Below, one piece after another: positions 50,905-64,000 of a stretch of 64,000 nucleotides of DNA (position 1 is its first letter; the number at the start of each line of letters is the position of its first letter). Location: NCBI RefSeq assembly GCF_019857225.1, contig NZ_JAFJSY010000039.1, forward strand, positions 1 to 64,000. The letters are read 5' to 3'. The position numbers were made by a program, and so were the translations under genes. Source of the DNA: Streptomyces plumbidurans. GTDB lineage: Bacteria > Actinomycetota > Actinomycetes > Streptomycetales > Streptomycetaceae. Below the pieces are notes generated by a model. That model made no database searches. It was not told the DNA's origin and saw nothing but the letters and a program-made list of their open reading frames with translations.

Positions 50905-51691
50905 CGAGGACCGTCAACTGGTCGCCGATCTTTACGACTTCCTCCGGCGCCGTTACAGGCACCGCACTCAACTCGGAGACATGCACCAGGCCCACAAGGC
51001 CATCGGCGACCTGAACGAAGACGCCGAACGGGAGCAGCTTGGTCACCCGCCCGCTCAGTCTCTGGCCCACTTCCATGCCTTCGGCGAACCCCAGGAAGGG
51101 GTCCGGCCGAGCATCCCGCAGAGAAAGCCGGGCCTCCCCGTTCCAGGTGTCGAACTGCAAGAACACGCACGACACCCGCTCCCCGATCTCAACGACCTCG
51201 GACGCCTCCTCGAAACGGCGCCACGACAGCTCGGGATGGGTGATGAACCCGACGCCGGGATAGACCGGATGGTCGGGCCCCTCGTCCAGCGCCACGAACA
51301 CCCCGAACGTCTCGATCGCCGCCACTGTGCCGGCCACGAGCTCACCAGGGCGAAGCCTCTTGAGGAACGCCCACAGTTCCGGGTTTTCGGTAGCCGCCGT
51401 CGACAGCCGCACCCGGCCGGCATCCACATCCACAGCAATCACCTCACCGGTGATGCTCCGTCCGACCACAGCCACGTCGGCAAAGCTCCGCTGCCAGGAA
51501 CCGTCCGACCACCCCACCGAACCGAGCGGGTGGCCAGGGAAACCGTCCAGGGTCACCGACATCTCGGACTGGGAGACCCCAGCGACCGTCCCGTGACAGA
51601 CGTCCCCGACGCGGAGCCCAGCCAGAAACCTTCTGACGCCCTCGCGAGCCGCCTCATCCCCCACAGCCGGCTCCTCAATGCGAGTGCCCAC
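50849..51691 (-). CDS. Protein with three S1 RNA-binding domains
   Basis: The 280-residue protein has S1-like units at about residues 25-80 (LRVGDVCHGTVAGVSQSEMSV), 118-190 (LRPGELVAGTVAAIETFGVF) and 208-278 (GMEVGQRLSGRVTKLLPFGV, VGLVHVSELS). The last two are canonical. It resembles a short relative of ribosomal protein S1 and could bind mRNA or ribosomes. It begins with GTG and is divergent from the integrase; whether it belongs to the element or to the chromosome is not decided. Confidence 0.85.
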   Translation of the reverse strand: MGTRIEEPAVGDEAAREGVRRFLAGLRVGDVCHGTVAGVSQSEMSVTLDGFPGHPLGSVGWSDGSWQRSFADVAVVGRSITGEVIAVDVDAGRVRLSTAATENPELWAFLKRLRPGELVAGTVAAIETFGVFVALDEGPDHPVYPGVGFITHPELSWRRFEEASEVVEIGERVSCVFLQFDTWNGEARLSLRDARPDPFLGFAEGMEVGQRLSGRVTKLLPFGVFVQVADGLVGLVHVSELSAVPVTAPEEVVKIGDQLTVLVTGVDRERRRLSLSLRRA

Positions 51692-51768
51692 TCCCCGCCG
51701 GCGTCGGACCCGCGTTCTTCACCGTGAGCGGCAGCAACTTCTTACCAGTCGGGCCGATTTGAATGGAA

Positions 51769-51817
51769 GTGTCCATCTGCGGGCATATGGACACACGCTT
51801 AAAACCAGCTCTACGGT
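51769..51817 (+). promoter_or_regulatory. Integrase promoter with inverted repeat
   Basis: GTGTCCAT (51769-51776) and ATGGACAC (51787-51794) are perfect 8-bp arms. The right arm includes TGGACA, a good -35, spaced 18 bases from TACGGT at 51812-51817. Transcription would begin close to the integrase ATG, giving a leaderless mRNA. The inverted repeat fits a repressor site on the -35. Confidence 0.5.
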
Positions 51818-51824
51818 CGCAGGC

Positions 51825-53438
51825 ATGGTGACACGTACACGTAAGCGCACGGCGGCCGACCAGAGGCAGTACTCGGTCGAGGCCGAGTGGACTGACGCGG
51901 ATCTCGCGCTCCTGGAGGAGCTGAAGCAGGCAGAGGCCTTACTACCCGAGGACGCGCCGCGGGCCCTCTTATCCATCCGCCTGTCTGTACTGACGGACGA
52001 AAGCACATCGCCCGTACGGCAAGAGCTTGACCTACGCATCCTCGCCAGAGAGCGCGGCTGTCGAGTCGTCGGCGTCGCCTCCGATCTCAACGTGTCGGCG
52101 ACAAAGGTGCCACCGTGGAAGAGGAAGGAGCTCGGGGACTGGCTGAACAACCGCTCCCCCGAGTTCGACGAGCTGCTGTTCTGGAAGTTGGATCGCTTCG
52201 TTCGGCGCCTTTCTGATCTCTCGACGATGATCGAGTGGAGTCTGAAGCGCGGGAAGAACCTGGTCTCGAAGCACGACAGCCTTGATCTCACAACAACAGC
52301 TGGAAAGATCATGGTCACGATCATCGGCGGTATCGCTGAGATCGAATCGGCCAACACCTCCACCCGCGTCGCAAGCCTGTGGGACTACGCGAAGACCCAG
52401 GAAGAGTGGATCATTGGCAAGCCGGCGTACGGCTACGTCACAGGTGAAGACGGTTCGGGCAAGCCCAAGCTCGTCATCGATCCCGACGCGTACAAGGCTT
52501 TGCACTGGGCTCGGCGCATGGCGCTTCGAGGGCGCTCCGCCCGCTTCATGGTGCGGTGCCTAAAGCGCTCCGGCCTCATGAGCCAAGGGCTCACAGTGGC
52601 AACACTGCACCGCCGCCTCCGTAACCCTGCACTCCTTGGCTACCGAGTAGAGGAGGACAAGCAGGGAGGGCAACGGCGCTCGAAGCCTGTTCTCGGCAAG
52701 GAGGGCAGGCCGATCAAGGTTGGTCCCCCGATCTTCACCGAGGAGGAGTTCGAGACGCTCGGCGCCGCCCTCGACAAGCGTAAGAAGAACCAGCCCCCGC
52801 GCCGCGTCGGCGGAGCGACTCAGTTCCTTGGCGTCCTCTTGTGCGCTGACTGCAAGACGAACATGACCGTGCAGATCACGAACAACACCTGGGGGACCTA
52901 CCGGTATCTCCGATGCCGCAACTGCAAGAGTGGCGGACTCGGAGCGCCCAACCCCGACCGGGTCTACGAGCGCCTGGTAGAAGACGTGCTCAAGGTCCTC
53001 GGCGACTTCCCGGTGCAGGTGCGCCAGTACGCCGAGGGTGCCGAAGTACGCCGAGAGATCAAACGTCTGCAAGAGTCCATCGCGCTGTACATGAAGGAAC
53101 TCGAACCCGGAGGCCGATACACGAAGACCCGGTTCACGAAGGAGCAGGCAGAAGCGACGCTCGACAAACTCATCGGAGAACTCGAAGCCATCGACCCCGA
53201 GACGGCGAAGGACCGATGGGTCAACGTCCACGGAGGCAAGACGTTCCGTGAGCACTGGCAGGAAGGTGGCATGGAAGCCATGGCCGCAGACCTGTACCGA
53301 GTCGGCATCCGGTGTGAGGTCACCCGTACGAAGGTGCCGAAGGTCCGAGCCCCGAAGGTGCACCTTCGCCTGCTGATCCCGAAGGATGTACGCGAGCGCC
53401 TCGTGATCCGTGAGGACGACTTCGCCGACGCCCTCTGA
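51825..53438 (+). CDS. int: Large serine recombinase (site-specific integrase)
   Basis: The 537-residue protein has an N-terminal resolvase/invertase domain (LLSIRLSVLTDESTSPVRQ with the likely nucleophilic Ser, DELLFWKLDRFVRRLSDLSTMIEW, GIAEIESANTSTRV). A recombinase domain follows (GKPAYGYVTGED, LRNPALLGYRVEED), then a zinc ribbon (LLCADCKTNM and RCRNCKSGG, about residues 342-370) and a coiled-coil region (EVRREIKRLQESIALYMKEL). It integrates and, with a directionality factor, excises the element. The N-terminal extension of about 45 residues is longer than in phiC31-type enzymes. A strong hairpin terminator follows. Confidence 0.93.
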   Translation: MVTRTRKRTAADQRQYSVEAEWTDADLALLEELKQAEALLPEDAPRALLSIRLSVLTDESTSPVRQELDLRILARERGCRVVGVASDLNVSATKVPPWKRKELGDWLNNRSPEFDELLFWKLDRFVRRLSDLSTMIEWSLKRGKNLVSKHDSLDLTTTAGKIMVTIIGGIAEIESANTSTRVASLWDYAKTQEEWIIGKPAYGYVTGEDGSGKPKLVIDPDAYKALHWARRMALRGRSARFMVRCLKRSGLMSQGLTVATLHRRLRNPALLGYRVEEDKQGGQRRSKPVLGKEGRPIKVGPPIFTEEEFETLGAALDKRKKNQPPRRVGGATQFLGVLLCADCKTNMTVQITNNTWGTYRYLRCRNCKSGGLGAPNPDRVYERLVEDVLKVLGDFPVQVRQYAEGAEVRREIKRLQESIALYMKELEPGGRYTKTRFTKEQAEATLDKLIGELEAIDPETAKDRWVNVHGGKTFREHWQEGGMEAMAADLYRVGIRCEVTRTKVPKVRAPKVHLRLLIPKDVRERLVIREDDFADAL

Positions 53439-53463
53439 CCCTAGTCCGGCCCGCACACGAATT

Positions 53464-53495
53464 AGCCGCCTTCCCCAGCTTCGGGGGAGGCGGCT
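53464..53495. terminator. Terminator after the integrase gene
   Basis: AGCCGCCTTCCCC and GGGGGAGGCGGCT form a near-perfect 13-bp stem with a short loop, between the convergent integrase and the small gene at its right. Confidence 0.75.
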
Positions 53496-53502
53496 TCGTG
53501 TC

Positions 53503-53640
53503 TCACTCGAACCACGACTCGGCGTCAAACGGTCTTTCCGTGCCGTCTTCATCCACAATCACGATCTCACTCTCGATCAGGTTCTTGGTCCCGTCATCCC
53601 TGGAGCTCTCAGGCTCGGGCAGAGGCGTTATCGGCTCCAC
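53503..53640 (-). CDS. Small acidic protein downstream of rep (45 aa)
   Basis: The GTG start lies within the last codons of rep, so translation is coupled. The product is acidic: VEPITPLPEPESSRDD, then NLIESEIVIVDEDGT and FDAESWFE. It takes the place occupied in other AICEs by xis, between rep and int, but has no helix-turn-helix like the usual Xis. It could be a directionality factor or an unrelated accessory protein. Confidence 0.5.
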   Translation of the reverse strand: MEPITPLPEPESSRDDGTKNLIESEIVIVDEDGTERPFDAESWFE

Positions 53641-55117
53641 CCCCCTGTCGCCCCTTGCACCGCCTCGACGTAGAGCCGTCGCGACTCTGCTAGGTCGTCG
53701 GCGATTCCAGCGGCTATGAGGGCAGCGCCAGGGGTGTGGCCGGAGCCGACGTAGCGCCACTGCCGTTCGGTGATCGCGTCGGGCCCGTCGCCGTGGCCCA
53801 TGTGATCGGCGCGTTGGGCGCGTAAGGCCGCGTAAGTAGTGGAGTAGGCACGGGACTTGGTGAGGATGTGGCCCCGGTAGCCGAGGGTGTGTGTCCAGGC
53901 CCGGAGGCGGAGGGGTTCGTACTCGGGGAGGCCGCCGAAGCGCCAGCAGGCCCGCATGAGGGTGCGGACGTGTGTGCTGACGGGGGCCGACTCGATGTCT
54001 GCCCAGGCGGTGAGTGGGTGGTCGAGGCCGGCGCCTGTCTCGCTGGCTCCCTTGGTGACGTACTTCGCGACGTACGCGGCCACCGCATCGTCATCAGGGC
54101 CGTCGCCCTTACTGCGCAGCGGCCGCGCGTCGACCTGCGCACCCCAGCGCAAGGCCAGCTCACCCGTGGCCGGGCTGTAGGGCGAGCGGACCAGGACGCG
54201 GCGGGCAGAGGCGCGCACGGCGTCGGTGAGCAATTCGGTCGTTGCCCACGCCGGGGGTTCGTCACCCGACCCGTCCGGCCCGTCGAGGCGGACGACAGCG
54301 TGCACATGGACCGCCGCCCGCTTCTGGTACTCGGCGACGCGGGCGAAGGACAGCCGAGCGTGCCGGGCGAAGTGGGACTGTACGAGGCCGACCGAGGAGG
54401 CCAGGCGCCGCCTGACGTCGATGACGAAGCGGTCCCACAGCTTGGAGGCGTGCGCGTGCCACAGGACGTGGGCGGTGTAGTCGTAGCAGTCGGGGCACAG
54501 TGGTTGGCCGACGGCCGGGGCGTCCGGAGTGTGCACGGTGCCGCAGCCGAGGGGGCGGCCGTGTTCGCAGTTGCCGCCGTCGCGGCGAGGACGGCAGACC
54601 CCTCCGGCACGGTGGACCGGGCCGAAGGACGGGGCGGTCAAAGTGACGAAGAGCCGGGGGCGGTGCCGGACCGTCGCGGGGACGTTTTTGCCGCCGAGGA
54701 GGCCCGCGCGGACCAGGTGGAAGGTGTCTCCGGCGTGGAGGCGGGAGCAGGCCGGGCAGACGGTGGCGCGGCGGTTGCGGCAACGGACGAGGAGGCGTTC
54801 ACCGGGTTCGTTGCGGGTGTCGTAGTGGTGCAGGATCTCGCCGGTTGTGCCGTCCACGGTGGTGGTCGAGCCGGAGAGGTGGATGGGGTGGGAGCAGCCG
54901 CCGGTGGCGGTGATCTGCTCCAGCCAGCGTGAGAACTTGGGGTCTTGGGCGATGCGGATTGCGTCGCGGTCTGCTTCGGGAAGCTGACGCAGGCGCGCCG
55001 CGCGGTCGAGGACGGCGCGCCTGTCAGCCGGGGTGAAGTCCGGGGTGATGGTGGTGACCTTCCGGGGTGGGCCGCCGAGGCGGCACGGTGGGTGGGTGGT
55101 GGCGCGTGGTCCGTCAT
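53628..55117 (-). CDS. RepSA-type replication initiator with 5' frameshift
   Basis: The main frame encodes a rolling-circle initiator of the Streptomyces AICE type: CRNRRATVCPACSRLHAG, RPRLFVTLTAPSFGPVHR, CPDCYDYTAHVLWHAHASKLW, YQKRAAVHVHAVVRLDG (metal-binding HVHAVVR), VAAYVAKYVTKGASETG and LRAWTHTLGYRGHILTKSRAYS. It is continuous from the stop up to about 55060 but has no ATG, GTG or TTG there. The ATG at 55117, with AAAGG before it (MTDHAPPPTHRAASAAHPG), is in a different frame. One missing G near 55058 would join the two. Either a recent mutation, a sequencing error, or starting at a rare codon. Confidence 0.8.
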
Positions 55118-55154
55118 GGGGATCACCTTTCTTGTGCGGCAGGCGGGGTGGGGT

Positions 55155-55268
55155 TCAGCGGATGGTTCCGGTGCCCCGGCAGACGCGGCAGCGCCGCAGC
55201 CGTCCGGTCCAGGTCTTGCGGGCTCCGTCGCCCTTGCAGTGGGGGCACCTCACGCGAGGCATCGGCAT
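55155..55268 (-). CDS. Zinc-knuckle miniprotein (37 aa)
   Basis: Encodes MPMPRVRCPHCKGDGARKTW followed by a basic stretch and CRVCRGTGTIR. Two CxxCxGxG knuckles resemble the zinc-binding repeats of DnaJ. AAAGGA lies nine bases before the ATG. Mini-genes of this kind are usual between rep and traB in Streptomyces AICEs. Role unknown. Confidence 0.65.
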   Translation of the reverse strand: MPMPRVRCPHCKGDGARKTWTGRLRRCRVCRGTGTIR

Positions 55269-55287
55269 GGCCGTGCGTCCTTTCTGC

Positions 55288-55485
55288 TCAGGTGTGGGAG
55301 AAGCCGCTGACGAGCCAGGTGACGAGTCCGTGGATGGTGAAGACCACCGGGGTCTGGCCCAGGTAGAGGCCGAAGAGGCCGACGCAGACCGCTTCCCAGG
55401 CCCGCACATCACGGGAGCGGACGAGGAGGACGGTGATGATCCCGAAGATCACCGCGAACGTGACCGCCGTTCCTTCGCTGATCAC
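55288..55485 (-). CDS. Small two-helix membrane protein (65 aa), Spd-like
   Basis: The GTG start overlaps the traB stop (GTGA) and is preceded by GGAAGGAG. Two hydrophobic segments (VTFAVIFGIITVLLV and VCVGLFGLYLGQTPVVFTI) flank a charged loop RSRDVRAWEA. Position and topology match the Spd (spread) proteins that help intramycelial plasmid movement in Streptomyces, though the sequence is too short to prove it. Confidence 0.65.
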   Translation of the reverse strand: MISEGTAVTFAVIFGIITVLLVRSRDVRAWEAVCVGLFGLYLGQTPVVFTIHGLVTWLVSGFSHT

Positions 55486-56783
55486 TGGTCGTCTCCTTCC
55501 AGCACCTCGACGGCGCCGTGCAGGGTGGGCAGTACGGGAGCAACGGTCGAGTACTTCCGCGCGATCGCTATGGCCTCTTCGGTCGGCGTGAGGTGGGAGC
55601 GGGCGCGGCTCCAGCCGCCGTCCGGTCCCGTGCACACGGCCACGCCGCGTTCCTCCGCCGTGATCGACTGCGCGACGGCCACGGCGTCCTTGTTCAGGTC
55701 GCCCAAGGTCATCTCTGCCGTACCGGGGTCGTTGACCCGGTGGCAGATCCGGCCGCCGAGCTGCGCTCGCAGGGCGGTGACGCCGGGGCCGAGGTCGGAG
55801 CCGACGCGCTGTCCGGCGACGACCAGGTGCAGGCCGAGCGCGGCCCCGAGTTGGGCGAGGCGGAGCAGGAGCGTCGAGCACTGCTCCGTCTCTGCCCTGC
55901 TCTCGCGCGTGCCGTCGGAAAGATAGAGTTCCGCGATCTCGTCGACGATCACGACGACGGGCACCGGACGCAGCTTGTCGGGCAGCTCCCAGATCGAGCG
56001 GACACCCGCCGTCCGGCAGGCACTCATCCGGGCTTGCATGTCGACCACCAGGGCAGAGAGCACGGTCACCGCCTCACGCCTGCACGTGGCCAGCGCGCTC
56101 AACCGCCCGGCGAACAGGCCGAGTTCCATGCCGCCCTTGCAGTCGATGCCGACCAGGGCGACGGGCTGCCCCGCGAGTTGGGTGATCAGCCGTGCCAGCA
56201 ACGTGGACTTACCCGAGCGAGTCGCCCCGGCGATCAGCCAGTGCGGCACGAGCCGTAGGTTCATCACCCAGGCGCCGCCGCTCTCCAGGACGCCGATGAG
56301 CGCGGAGAGGAGTTCGGCCGGGGCCGTGGCTAACCCAGGGCGTTCCAGCGGATCCGTGGCTGTCGCCGTCAGCAACACGAGGCCGCGTTCCGGTGAGGTG
56401 ACCCGGACCGCGTGAACCTTCCACGCGTGCACCAGGGCGTCAGCTGCCTTCAGATACGTCGCCGGGGTCTGGCCCGCGTGCAGCCGCACCGTCACGGTCA
56501 GGCCCACGCGGGTAGCCCGCGGGAACGAGATCCGGGGAGCCACCGGGCGCAGCGGGTCGCCCTTGACCACCAGGTCCCCGAGCAGCCCGCGCGGCGGGCG
56601 ACGTGACACCGCGAGGTCATTGAGCATGGCGACCTTGCGCCACGTCGCGAGCACCCGGCACGCGGTCACCATGTAGCCGACGAGGTACCAGTGCCAGACC
56701 GGGCGATGCCGGCGAACCAGGTCACCGACCACGAGCACCCAGGCCAGCGCTGCCACGCCGAGGGCGAGCAGGATGGGTCCCAT
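55482..56783 (-). CDS. traB: FtsK/SpoIIIE-like conjugal DNA translocase (TraB)
   Basis: The 433-residue protein has N-terminal membrane segments (ILLALGVAALAWVLVVGDLV, WYLVGYMVTACRVLATW) and an FtsK-type ATPase domain with Walker A IAGATRSGKSTLLARLIT and Walker B PVVVIVDEIAELYL. VVAGQRVGSDLGPGVTALRAQ and GRICHRVNDPGTAEMTLGDL are typical of AICE transfer proteins. It pumps double-stranded element DNA into the recipient. The ATG overlaps the previous stop (TGATG); a GTG one codon upstream is an alternative. The C-terminal winged-helix DNA-recognition part is short. Confidence 0.9.
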   Translation of the reverse strand: MGPILLALGVAALAWVLVVGDLVRRHRPVWHWYLVGYMVTACRVLATWRKVAMLNDLAVSRRPPRGLLGDLVVKGDPLRPVAPRISFPRATRVGLTVTVRLHAGQTPATYLKAADALVHAWKVHAVRVTSPERGLVLLTATATDPLERPGLATAPAELLSALIGVLESGGAWVMNLRLVPHWLIAGATRSGKSTLLARLITQLAGQPVALVGIDCKGGMELGLFAGRLSALATCRREAVTVLSALVVDMQARMSACRTAGVRSIWELPDKLRPVPVVVIVDEIAELYLSDGTRESRAETEQCSTLLLRLAQLGAALGLHLVVAGQRVGSDLGPGVTALRAQLGGRICHRVNDPGTAEMTLGDLNKDAVAVAQSITAEERGVAVCTGPDGGWSRARSHLTPTEEAIAIARKYSTVAPVLPTLHGAVEVLEGDDQ

Positions 56784-57130
56784 CACGCGTCACCGCCCTT
56801 GCGCTGCGCGGGAGTTGCGTGCGCAGGCGTGACGGCGTCCGCGCGGAAGCTGACGCCGTTGCGGTCGCCCATCGCCCAGACGAACGCCGTCAGTCCGGTG
56901 ACCTTGACGGCCTGGCCCGGTTCGAGCCCCTGGGGCTCACCGCTCACGGCGATCTCGATGACGGATATACGCCGCCCGTCCGGCCGCACGATGACGGCCA
57001 CGGTGTACACCGGGTTGCCGTCTCGGTCCTTCTTCACCTCCTGCGTCTCGAAGTTACTGAACTTCACTTCGGGCACGTTGGCGCACCGCAGTACGCCCAG
57101 CCGTGCCGTGTCCACGGGAATGGACTGCAT
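56783..57130 (-). CDS. SCO3933-family regulatory protein of AICEs
   Basis: The 115-residue protein has a beta-rich core: VDTARLGVLRCANVPEVKFSN, QEVKKDRDGNPVYTVAVIVRP, ISVIEIAVSGEPQGLEPGQA, VKVTGLTAFVWAMGDRNG. The fold resembles an OB-type domain. Homologues sit just before traB in many Streptomyces elements and carry the name of S. coelicolor SCO3933, a regulatory label without proven mechanism. AAGGAGG eight bases before the ATG gives strong initiation. Expressed from the divergent promoter under the palindromic operator. Confidence 0.8.
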   Translation of the reverse strand: MQSIPVDTARLGVLRCANVPEVKFSNFETQEVKKDRDGNPVYTVAVIVRPDGRRISVIEIAVSGEPQGLEPGQAVKVTGLTAFVWAMGDRNGVSFRADAVTPAHATPAQRKGGDA

Positions 57131-61254: not shown

Positions 61255-62169
61255 CTACCAGGGCCGCCAGTCCCGTGGCGCATCGTCGTTCCGCAAACCT
61301 GCGATGCGCCGGCGGTACTCGGCCGCGGTCTCCTCGTCCTCCCGAATGTTCTGCATGAGCCAGGTCGTCATGCCGAACTCTTGGATGCCCCGAAGCGTCT
61401 CGTAACCGGGCCAGTCGTACAGGTCGCGCCCATACGCAGCCACGAAGTCGGCGTACTGCTCGTCTGTCTGCCAGCCAAGGCTGTGATGCTCCACCGCCGT
61501 CACCATGAGATCCCACTCAGGGTGGTCGTAACAGAACGCCTCGAAGTCGATGAGGAGCACGCGCCCCTGCTCGTCCACCATGAGGTTCTGCACATGGGCA
61601 TCCCCGTGCACCGGCCCCTTCGGCGTCTCGAACCGCAACTCCGCGTACTTGTCCCGCAGTTCCCGCCACCGCTTCCGCAAGAACGCCCTGTCGTCATCCG
61701 GGATCACAGCCCGGTCGAGCCGCAGCTCCTGCTTGTCGAAGGGCTCAAAGGACGGAAGTACCAAACCTTCCGGCAGGGTCAGCGAGTGCAGCTCCCGCAG
61801 GATGCCGCCCAACTCCCCGTAGGTGGCCTTACGGTCACCCTCAACGATCAGGTGCCAGAAGGTCACCGGATGACCGTCGATCACAACAGGCTGCTCCAGA
61901 TCCTCGACGATCCGAGCGGCCGGGAACCCTTCCCCCGCCAACCACCGCGACACGGCCACTTCGGTACGGGCCCTGGGCAACCACTCTTCCCCACGGGTGA
62001 CACGGACGATTACCGGCACGGAGGCCAGCCGAAACAGCGCGTTCTCCCCGAGCCTGATCAACTCCGCGCCTCTGTCGTCGAGTCCAGCAGCCCGGCACGC
62101 GGCAGCCATCACCCGCGCAGCCCTCGCCGACGTGAACCCCTCTTCCGATCGAGCAGCGTCAACCGCCAT
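61255..62169 (-). CDS. Aminoglycoside-phosphotransferase-fold kinase
   Basis: The 304-residue protein has the APH/choline kinase layout: N-terminal lobe with LIRLGENALFRLASVPVIVRV, catalytic loop GPVHGDAHVQNLMVD (HGDxHxxN) and metal-binding VLLIDFEAFCYDHPEWDL (IDFE rather than the usual IDxD). GVLREL-like segment GGILRELHSLTLP is also typical. It probably phosphorylates a small molecule; antibiotic resistance is possible but unproven. Convergent with the HTH/TPR gene, with only six bases between stops. Confidence 0.85.
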   Translation of the reverse strand: MAVDAARSEEGFTSARAARVMAAACRAAGLDDRGAELIRLGENALFRLASVPVIVRVTRGEEWLPRARTEVAVSRWLAGEGFPAARIVEDLEQPVVIDGHPVTFWHLIVEGDRKATYGELGGILRELHSLTLPEGLVLPSFEPFDKQELRLDRAVIPDDDRAFLRKRWRELRDKYAELRFETPKGPVHGDAHVQNLMVDEQGRVLLIDFEAFCYDHPEWDLMVTAVEHHSLGWQTDEQYADFVAAYGRDLYDWPGYETLRGIQEFGMTTWLMQNIREDEETAAEYRRRIAGLRNDDAPRDWRPW

Positions 62170-62478: not shown

Positions 62479-64000
62479 CTGACCATCCGCGCAAGCGCGG
62501 GGAGCACTCACCGCCTGGCAGATCCACACCATGACCGACGGGACCATCCCCGCAGGCGCGGGGAGCACGCGGGGAAGTCCTCGAAGAGGCGAGCCGAGTA
62601 GGGACCACCCCCGCAGGCGCGGGGAGCACTTCACCGCCGCGCTCCTCGTGGCCGCCACCGTGGGACCATCCCCGCAGGCGCGGGGAGCACCCGACCAAGG
62701 ACTCCCTTCTTGACGAGCTGGAGGGACCATCCCCGGAGGCGCGGGGAGCAGGTCATCGGGGTGTCCTTGCCCTTGTTGTCGGGGGGACCATCCCCGCAGG
62801 CGCGGGGAGCACAGCCCGCGCCGCACCGGATGGGACCTGTCCCAGGGACCATCCCCGCAGGCGCGGGGAGCGCGCAGAACGTCAAGGCCGCCCGCGCCGC
62901 GATCCGGGACCATCCCCGCAGGCGCGGGGAGCACCGGGCGCGCATCTTGGGGAGGCTGACGGCCCGGGGACCATCCCCGCAGGCGCGGGGAGCACGGTCT
63001 GACCGCGGCGACGTCGGACGTGGCGCTGGGACCATCCCCGCAGGCGCGGGGAGCACATCGGGGCGCGCCGTTCTTCCACCCAGTTGGGGGGACCATCCCC
63101 GCAGGCGCGGGGAGCACGAACTGGCGGAGCTCGGCGACGGCGGCGGCGTGGGACCATCCCCGCAGGCGCGGGGAGCACTCAGCGTCGACACCGAGCCGCT
63201 GAAGGCTCACGGGACCATCCCCGCAGGCGCGGGGAGCACGAGGGCGGCGTTGAGGCGGTTGACGTAGCCCGAGGACCATCCCCGCAGGCGCGGGGAGCAC
63301 GGCTCCACGATGCCGTACGCGCCGGGGCCGTGAGGACCATCCCCGCAGGCGCGGGGAGCACAGGATCTGGCGGGCGATGAGGACGAGTTCGCGGGGACCA
63401 TCCCCGCAGGCGCGGGGAGCACATGTGGTACTCGCGGGTGTTGTTCTTGGTGCGGGGACCATCCCCGCAGGCGCGGGGAGCACCGCTGGTCCAATTGCGC
63501 GTCGGTGAGCCGGTTGGGACCATCCCCGCAGGCGCGGGGAGCACGTTGGGGTACTGCTCCTCGACGGCTGCCGGTCGGGACCATCCCCGCAGGCGCGGGG
63601 AGCACCCGGGCTGGGATCGGCCGTCCCGTCCCCGCCAGGGACCATCCCCGCAGGCGCGGGGAGCACAACCGCAAGCTCTACCGCGCCAACTACGGCACGG
63701 GACCATCCCCGCAGGCGCGGGGAGCACACCGGCAAGAGCAGCGGCTCGCAGGTCACCCAGGGACCATCCCCGCAGGCGCGGGGAGCACACCGGCAAGAGC
63801 AGCGGCTCGCAGGTCACCCAGGGACCATCCCCGCAGGCGCGGGGAGCACACCGGCAAGAGCAGCGGCTCGCAGGTCACCCAGGGACCATCCCCGCAGGCG
63901 CGGGGAGCACACCGGCAAGAGCAGCGGCTCGCAGGTCACCCAGGGACCATCCCCGCAGGCGCGGGGAGCACACCGGCAAGAGCAGCGGCTCGCAGGTCAC
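62479..64000 (-). CRISPR. Type I-E CRISPR array, trailer end; 25 repeats visible
   Basis: 29-bp repeats with 32-bp spacers in an exact 61-bp period, from 62479 to the window end. In transcript orientation (minus strand) the repeat starts GTGCTCCCCGCGC and has the CCCCGC/GCGGGG hairpin of type I-E. The first repeat differs at four positions. Repeats at 62601, 62723, 62845, 63272 and 63333 carry one or two changes each, so decay is at the left. The leader and any cas genes should lie right of the window. Spacers 21-24 are identical, and the visible 29 bases of spacer 25 match them. Confidence 0.97.

Follow-up and report, generated by a model that had tools for sequence, protein, structure and literature searches.

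As assembled, a type I-E CRISPR array in Streptomyces plumbidurans carries five consecutive copies of one spacer. We consider this run to be, with a probability of roughly 80%, the result of tandem duplication of a single spacer-repeat unit, by slippage during replication or by unequal crossing-over between misaligned 29-nt repeats; more than one step was probably involved. The run lies at the end of the window, i.e. the stretch of 64,000 nucleotides that was analysed, which corresponds to bp 1-64,000 of a contig of 122,457 bp (C123) in a genome assembly of 8.64 Mb and 189 contigs. The window edge falls inside the array; 25 repeats, each followed by a spacer, are present within the window, and the remainder was read from the contig. 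The array and its parts are as follows:

62479-64000, continuing to contig position 64277, minus strand: CRISPR array 1, type I-E, with the crRNA sense on the minus strand.
62508-63698, minus strand: trailer-side, older part of array 1, with 20 spacers that are all different.
63699-64000, the fifth spacer being completed at contig position 64003, minus strand: run of five identical spacer units, as read from the sequence.

Array 1 consists of 29-nt repeats and 32-nt spacers (one spacer is 33 nt) and contains 29 spacers in total, 25 of them distinct. From the leader, the order is four unique, five identical and 20 unique spacers. The repeat farthest from the leader (62479-62507) is degenerate, as expected for the trailer end, and five repeats in the trailer-side part have one or two base variants. 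The identical spacers start at 63728, 63789, 63850, 63911 and 63972, with a period of 61 nt. Their number agrees with the original prediction, which had seen 29 nt of the fifth copy at the window edge, and the predicted differences between the 20 preceding spacers and the reading frame TGKSSGSQVT in the repeated spacer were confirmed as well. All six repeats touching the run (63699, 63760, 63821, 63882, 63943 and contig position 64004) match the consensus without any variant that could trace single duplication steps. The identical adjacent units are in register with the repeat, and the 122-nt segments starting at 63699, 63760 and 63821 are mutually 100% identical, which excludes chance as an explanation for the run.

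The run had also been placed at the leader side of the array, which proved to be wrong. Past the window edge, the contig contains four further, different spacers between positions 64033 and 64248, followed by the final repeat (64249-64277), where the leader starts. This shows that the run is internal, occupying positions 5-9 of 29 from the leader with exactly five copies in the assembly. Judging by its place, the original spacer of the run is older than the four spacers nearer to the leader.

Eight cas genes of type I-E (cas2e, cas1e, cas6e, cas5e, cas7e, cse2, cse1 and cas3) were found between array 1 and contig position 73699. The products of the first seven score above the cut-offs of I-E-specific NCBIfam models, whereas Cas3 is recognised by the general models for the cas3 core and HD domain but falls short of the whole-length model PRK09694 (274 versus 569 bits). 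By sequence, this complete set of cas genes, together with a palindromic repeat of 29 nt and spacers of approximately 32 nt, classifies the locus as a type I-E CRISPR-Cas system. A second array lies beyond the cas genes:

Contig positions 73931-75608 (L009:11632-13308), opposite orientation to array 1: array 2, type I-E, with a slightly different repeat.

Array 2 contains 27 spacers, of which 24 are distinct and one is 34 nt long. It shows tandem duplications of its own, namely one adjacent duplicate of a single unit and one block of two units (ABAB).

The cas region matched 48 plasmid records (47 from Streptomyces and one from Kitasatospora), and in 27 of them the match spans 80% or more of the query. 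Two of the eight plasmid records that were retrieved are circular, with ParA and ParB genes nearby, and the I-E locus may travel on plasmids. Within the window, genes for a serine recombinase, a pSAM2-type RepSA initiator and an FtsK/SpoIIIE-type ATPase are present at 51678-56786, 6-11 kb from array 1; this region looks like an integrated conjugative element. A gene for an APH-family phosphotransferase (61255-62169) lies approximately 310 nt from the trailer end of array 1.

Misalignment of repeats during replication has been proposed as the likely source of spacer duplications, a known phenomenon for which direct data on the mechanism are still wanting (PMC8047081). Applied to array 1, misalignment of the 29-nt repeats, by slippage or unequal crossing-over, would have doubled one unit in tandem. 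With two identical units adjoining, the available homology would increase from 29 to about 90 nt, so that further gain and loss would become easier, and further gains would then have led to the five copies in the assembly. The five units should all give the same crRNA. Unequal recombination, slippage during integration and misassembly had been listed as possible origins of the run; recombination or slippage between repeats is the best supported. It is the best explanation covering the run, the duplications in array 2 and the double, triple and block duplications that were found in relatives.

To place the run among related arrays, Streptomyces genomes were surveyed for duplicated spacers. An exact match to the repeat pattern was found in 90 of 392 genomes of the genus, including the genome studied here, and stretches from 31 of the other 89 were surveyed. 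These 31 genomes were picked for having many repeats or for listed places and are not a random draw. The survey comprised 95 array segments with 1,507 spacers; arrays were divided wherever a repeat is degenerate or a stretch ends, so that 95 overstates the number of arrays. Duplicated spacers were present in 17 of the 95 segments and adjacent identical spacers in 11. In nine of these 11 segments the longest run was two, in the other two it was three, and blocks of the types ABAB and ABCABC also occurred among the surveyed segments. Counted as runs, the genome survey gave 1,475 singles, 13 doubles and two triples, and the stretches from the eight plasmid records gave 280 singles and three doubles. 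Approximately 1% of the runs thus exceed one unit, and 2/15 of these in the genome survey exceed two; these small numbers hint that expansion is easier once a duplicate exists. No run longer than three was found in any other array examined (95 genome segments and eight plasmid records), and the run of five is the longest seen here and an outlier. At up to 3 mismatches, the fivefold spacer was absent from the 391 other genomes of the genus, its own genome being the only one of the 392 to carry it. None of these 391 genomes was found to have the same array with fewer copies.

It is possible, if somewhat doubtful, that the true copy number is other than five. Such an assembly artefact would concern the number of copies and would be compatible with a real duplication; misassembly had also been named in the original prediction and, as regards the copy number, is possible. 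At 334 nt, the periodic stretch exceeds the typical length of short reads and takes the form of a loop in an assembly graph, and an assembly of 189 contigs is usual for, and thus probably derives from, short reads. The exact copy number is therefore unproven. However, assemblers collapse tandem copies more often than they invent them, the contig continues through the array, and array 2 has different duplication patterns. Moreover, duplications were also present in relatives assembled into 1-3 contigs (G379, G179 and G218), among which runs of two and three occur, and in two of the eight plasmid records, which are described as complete.

Two further explanations involve the adaptation machinery. 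In the I-E system of S. avermitilis, the first repeat and spacer of one array were duplicated without the uptake of a new spacer (PMC4762764), and a duplication of the leader-first unit, at a time when the present spacer was the first in the array, could have started the run. As a source of the entire run such duplication is less favoured and unlikely: the precedent is a single event among 69 new spacers (PMC4762764), five copies would need four such events in succession, and this process does not by itself account for the blocks of two and three units seen in array 2 and in relatives. Five independent acquisitions of one protospacer from one invader are hardly credible. Some protospacers were taken repeatedly in S. 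avermitilis, where 50 of the 69 new spacers were unique (PMC4762764), but no other spacer is present between the copies of the run. In a set of 24,090 spacers with 805 duplicate candidates, 86% of the candidates were attributed to duplication and 1% to re-acquisition (PMC11472070). The two-unit block in array 2 also counts for duplication, because repeated acquisition would not be expected to produce such a block.

The original prediction had called for a search of the repeated spacer against phage and plasmid genomes and for its PAM. The search gave one suggestive candidate target but no definite PAM. At up to 3 mismatches, the own genome contained no site besides the five array copies that would indicate self-targeting. 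Direct spacer matches were obtained in seven phage and 72 plasmid records at E-values up to 10 and were taken as chance; the best E-value was 0.3 in phages and, for the 20 plasmid records listed out of 72, 0.2. Among viral contigs, exact searches with the PAM-proximal 16 nt plus an assumed 3-nt flank, and with the first 24 spacer nucleotides (plus strand), gave no match. The candidate was found with a degenerate codon pattern for TGKSSGSQVT, which had a single match in the viral collection (IMGVR_UViG_2740891882_000003), while one reversed control pattern had none. At this site 26 of 32 nt agree, with TAT as the PAM-side flank. The six differences are synonymous, as the codon pattern demanded. 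The same pattern in the genome collection matched a contig of a Planctomycetota MAG with 10 mismatches, which was taken as chance; since this match is apparently fortuitous, the viral match possibly is as well.

The viral site lies in frame in an ORF of 974 residues, the middle of which matches the minor-tail-protein profile phrog_11445 (E-value 7.8e-24). A search with the whole protein gave only relatives with less than 60% identity, in 92 phage records, of which 89 belong to Streptomyces phages. The 60 matches listed span only residues between 347 and 784 and leave the site near residue 845 uncovered. A search with a 70-residue stretch of the tail protein around the site returned only the same viral contig. 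The same stretch had no match in the 392 genomes of the genus, in a search that was run without a positive control and is uninformative. Among phage records it gave two weak Listeria matches, which lie outside the part encoded by the spacer and were rejected. The predicted target of the fivefold spacer may thus be the gene of a phage minor tail protein, for which these matches are suggestive only.

One other spacer of array 1 has a closer phage match:

62691-62722, minus strand: spacer that agrees in 30 of 32 nt with the ribonucleotide reductase gene of Streptomyces phage Ibantik; the PAM-side flank reads TAC.

For array 2 and the leader-side spacers of array 1, the phage hits were either weak or extended across repeats, and none was accepted as a protospacer. 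For a count of the flanks, distinct spacer-protospacer pairs with at most 6 mismatches were used, the copies of one site in phages Lika and Zemlya being counted once. An A or T at position -3 with an A at -2 was seen in six of eight pairs (including the TAT and TAC sites) and in two of five pairs of a second set, in a count made without a shuffled control. The remaining five flanks are GCC (three times), TGG and ATC. The flanks fit a loose AT-containing PAM, but they are mixed and none is fixed.

C is the last repeat base in most of the surveyed loci that have arrays, but in loci L063, L064 and L070 nearly all repeats end in G. The last base of the repeat is normally derived from the PAM (PMC4762764), and two PAM classes within one genus are therefore possible. 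Against this, a C-ending spacer of locus L100 has an AAG-flanked match in phage Ibantik with 2 mismatches. Streptomyces phage Piccadilly itself contains six hairpins resembling the I-E repeat (L062:1380-1685, approximately 34.6-34.9 kb, between genes 53 and 54). They have up to 7 substitutions in 27 positions relative to the array repeat and start 49-61 nt apart. At a comparable position, the array query also matches 15 other records of Streptomyces phages, several of which are duplicate entries for the same phages. The hairpins may be a degenerate phage-borne mini-array or an element resembling an RNA anti-CRISPR.

The candidate target also bears on the suggestion that additional copies increase the amount of one crRNA and have been retained for better protection against one phage. 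A dosage advantage is possible from the anatomy of array 1, where the fivefold spacer accounts for 5 of 29 units, and a candidate phage target exists. However, this target has six mismatches and its link to this host is putative, while copy changes in this locus and in relatives, where runs of two and three occur, take place without known benefit. Nothing was found in favour of the predicted selection for a higher dose, and we regard it as quite improbable. If it were true, a cell would multiply one effective spacer against a dominant phage, comparable to the amplification of resistance genes, and the copy number in the array would be a quantitative part of immune memory.

The presence of a fivefold run, a single-unit duplication and a block duplication in one locus makes it a convenient natural case for measuring rates of copy gain and loss, and for determining whether copy number alters the crRNA dose. 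The case also shows that, in draft genomes, the number of identical spacers should be confirmed by long reads.

Several known systems resemble the one described here. The CRISPR system of the Mycobacterium tuberculosis complex is of type III-A, unlike the type I-E system studied here. In 198 isolates of that complex, 16 independent tandem duplications were reported, of single as well as multiple units as in the present locus, and were attributed to recombination between repeats (PMC7708916). In contrast to array 1, second copies are described there, and the available part of that paper contains no run of five. In layout the locus is similar to that of S. avermitilis, which has eight I-E cas genes, two arrays in opposite directions, 29-bp repeats and 32-bp new spacers, and in which duplication of a first unit was seen once (PMC4762764). 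It differs in its PAM, which is AAG and from which new repeats normally take their last base G (PMC4762764), whereas C is the usual last base of the repeats described here, and array 1 has TAC and TAT as the flanks of its two candidate protospacers. In the accessible literature on duplicated or identical spacers and their selective advantage we met no report of a fivefold run as such, although one may well have been published. Published counts give consecutive identical spacers for 2,391 arrays out of 39,378, and fewer than three duplicates for the majority of arrays that contain identical spacers (PMC7913763), compared with the five copies in the present assembly. With known tandem duplications the run shares identical neighbouring units, an array-internal position and intact repeats (PMC8047081, PMC7913763, PMC11472070), and it is a somewhat extreme example, with a high copy number, of a known process.
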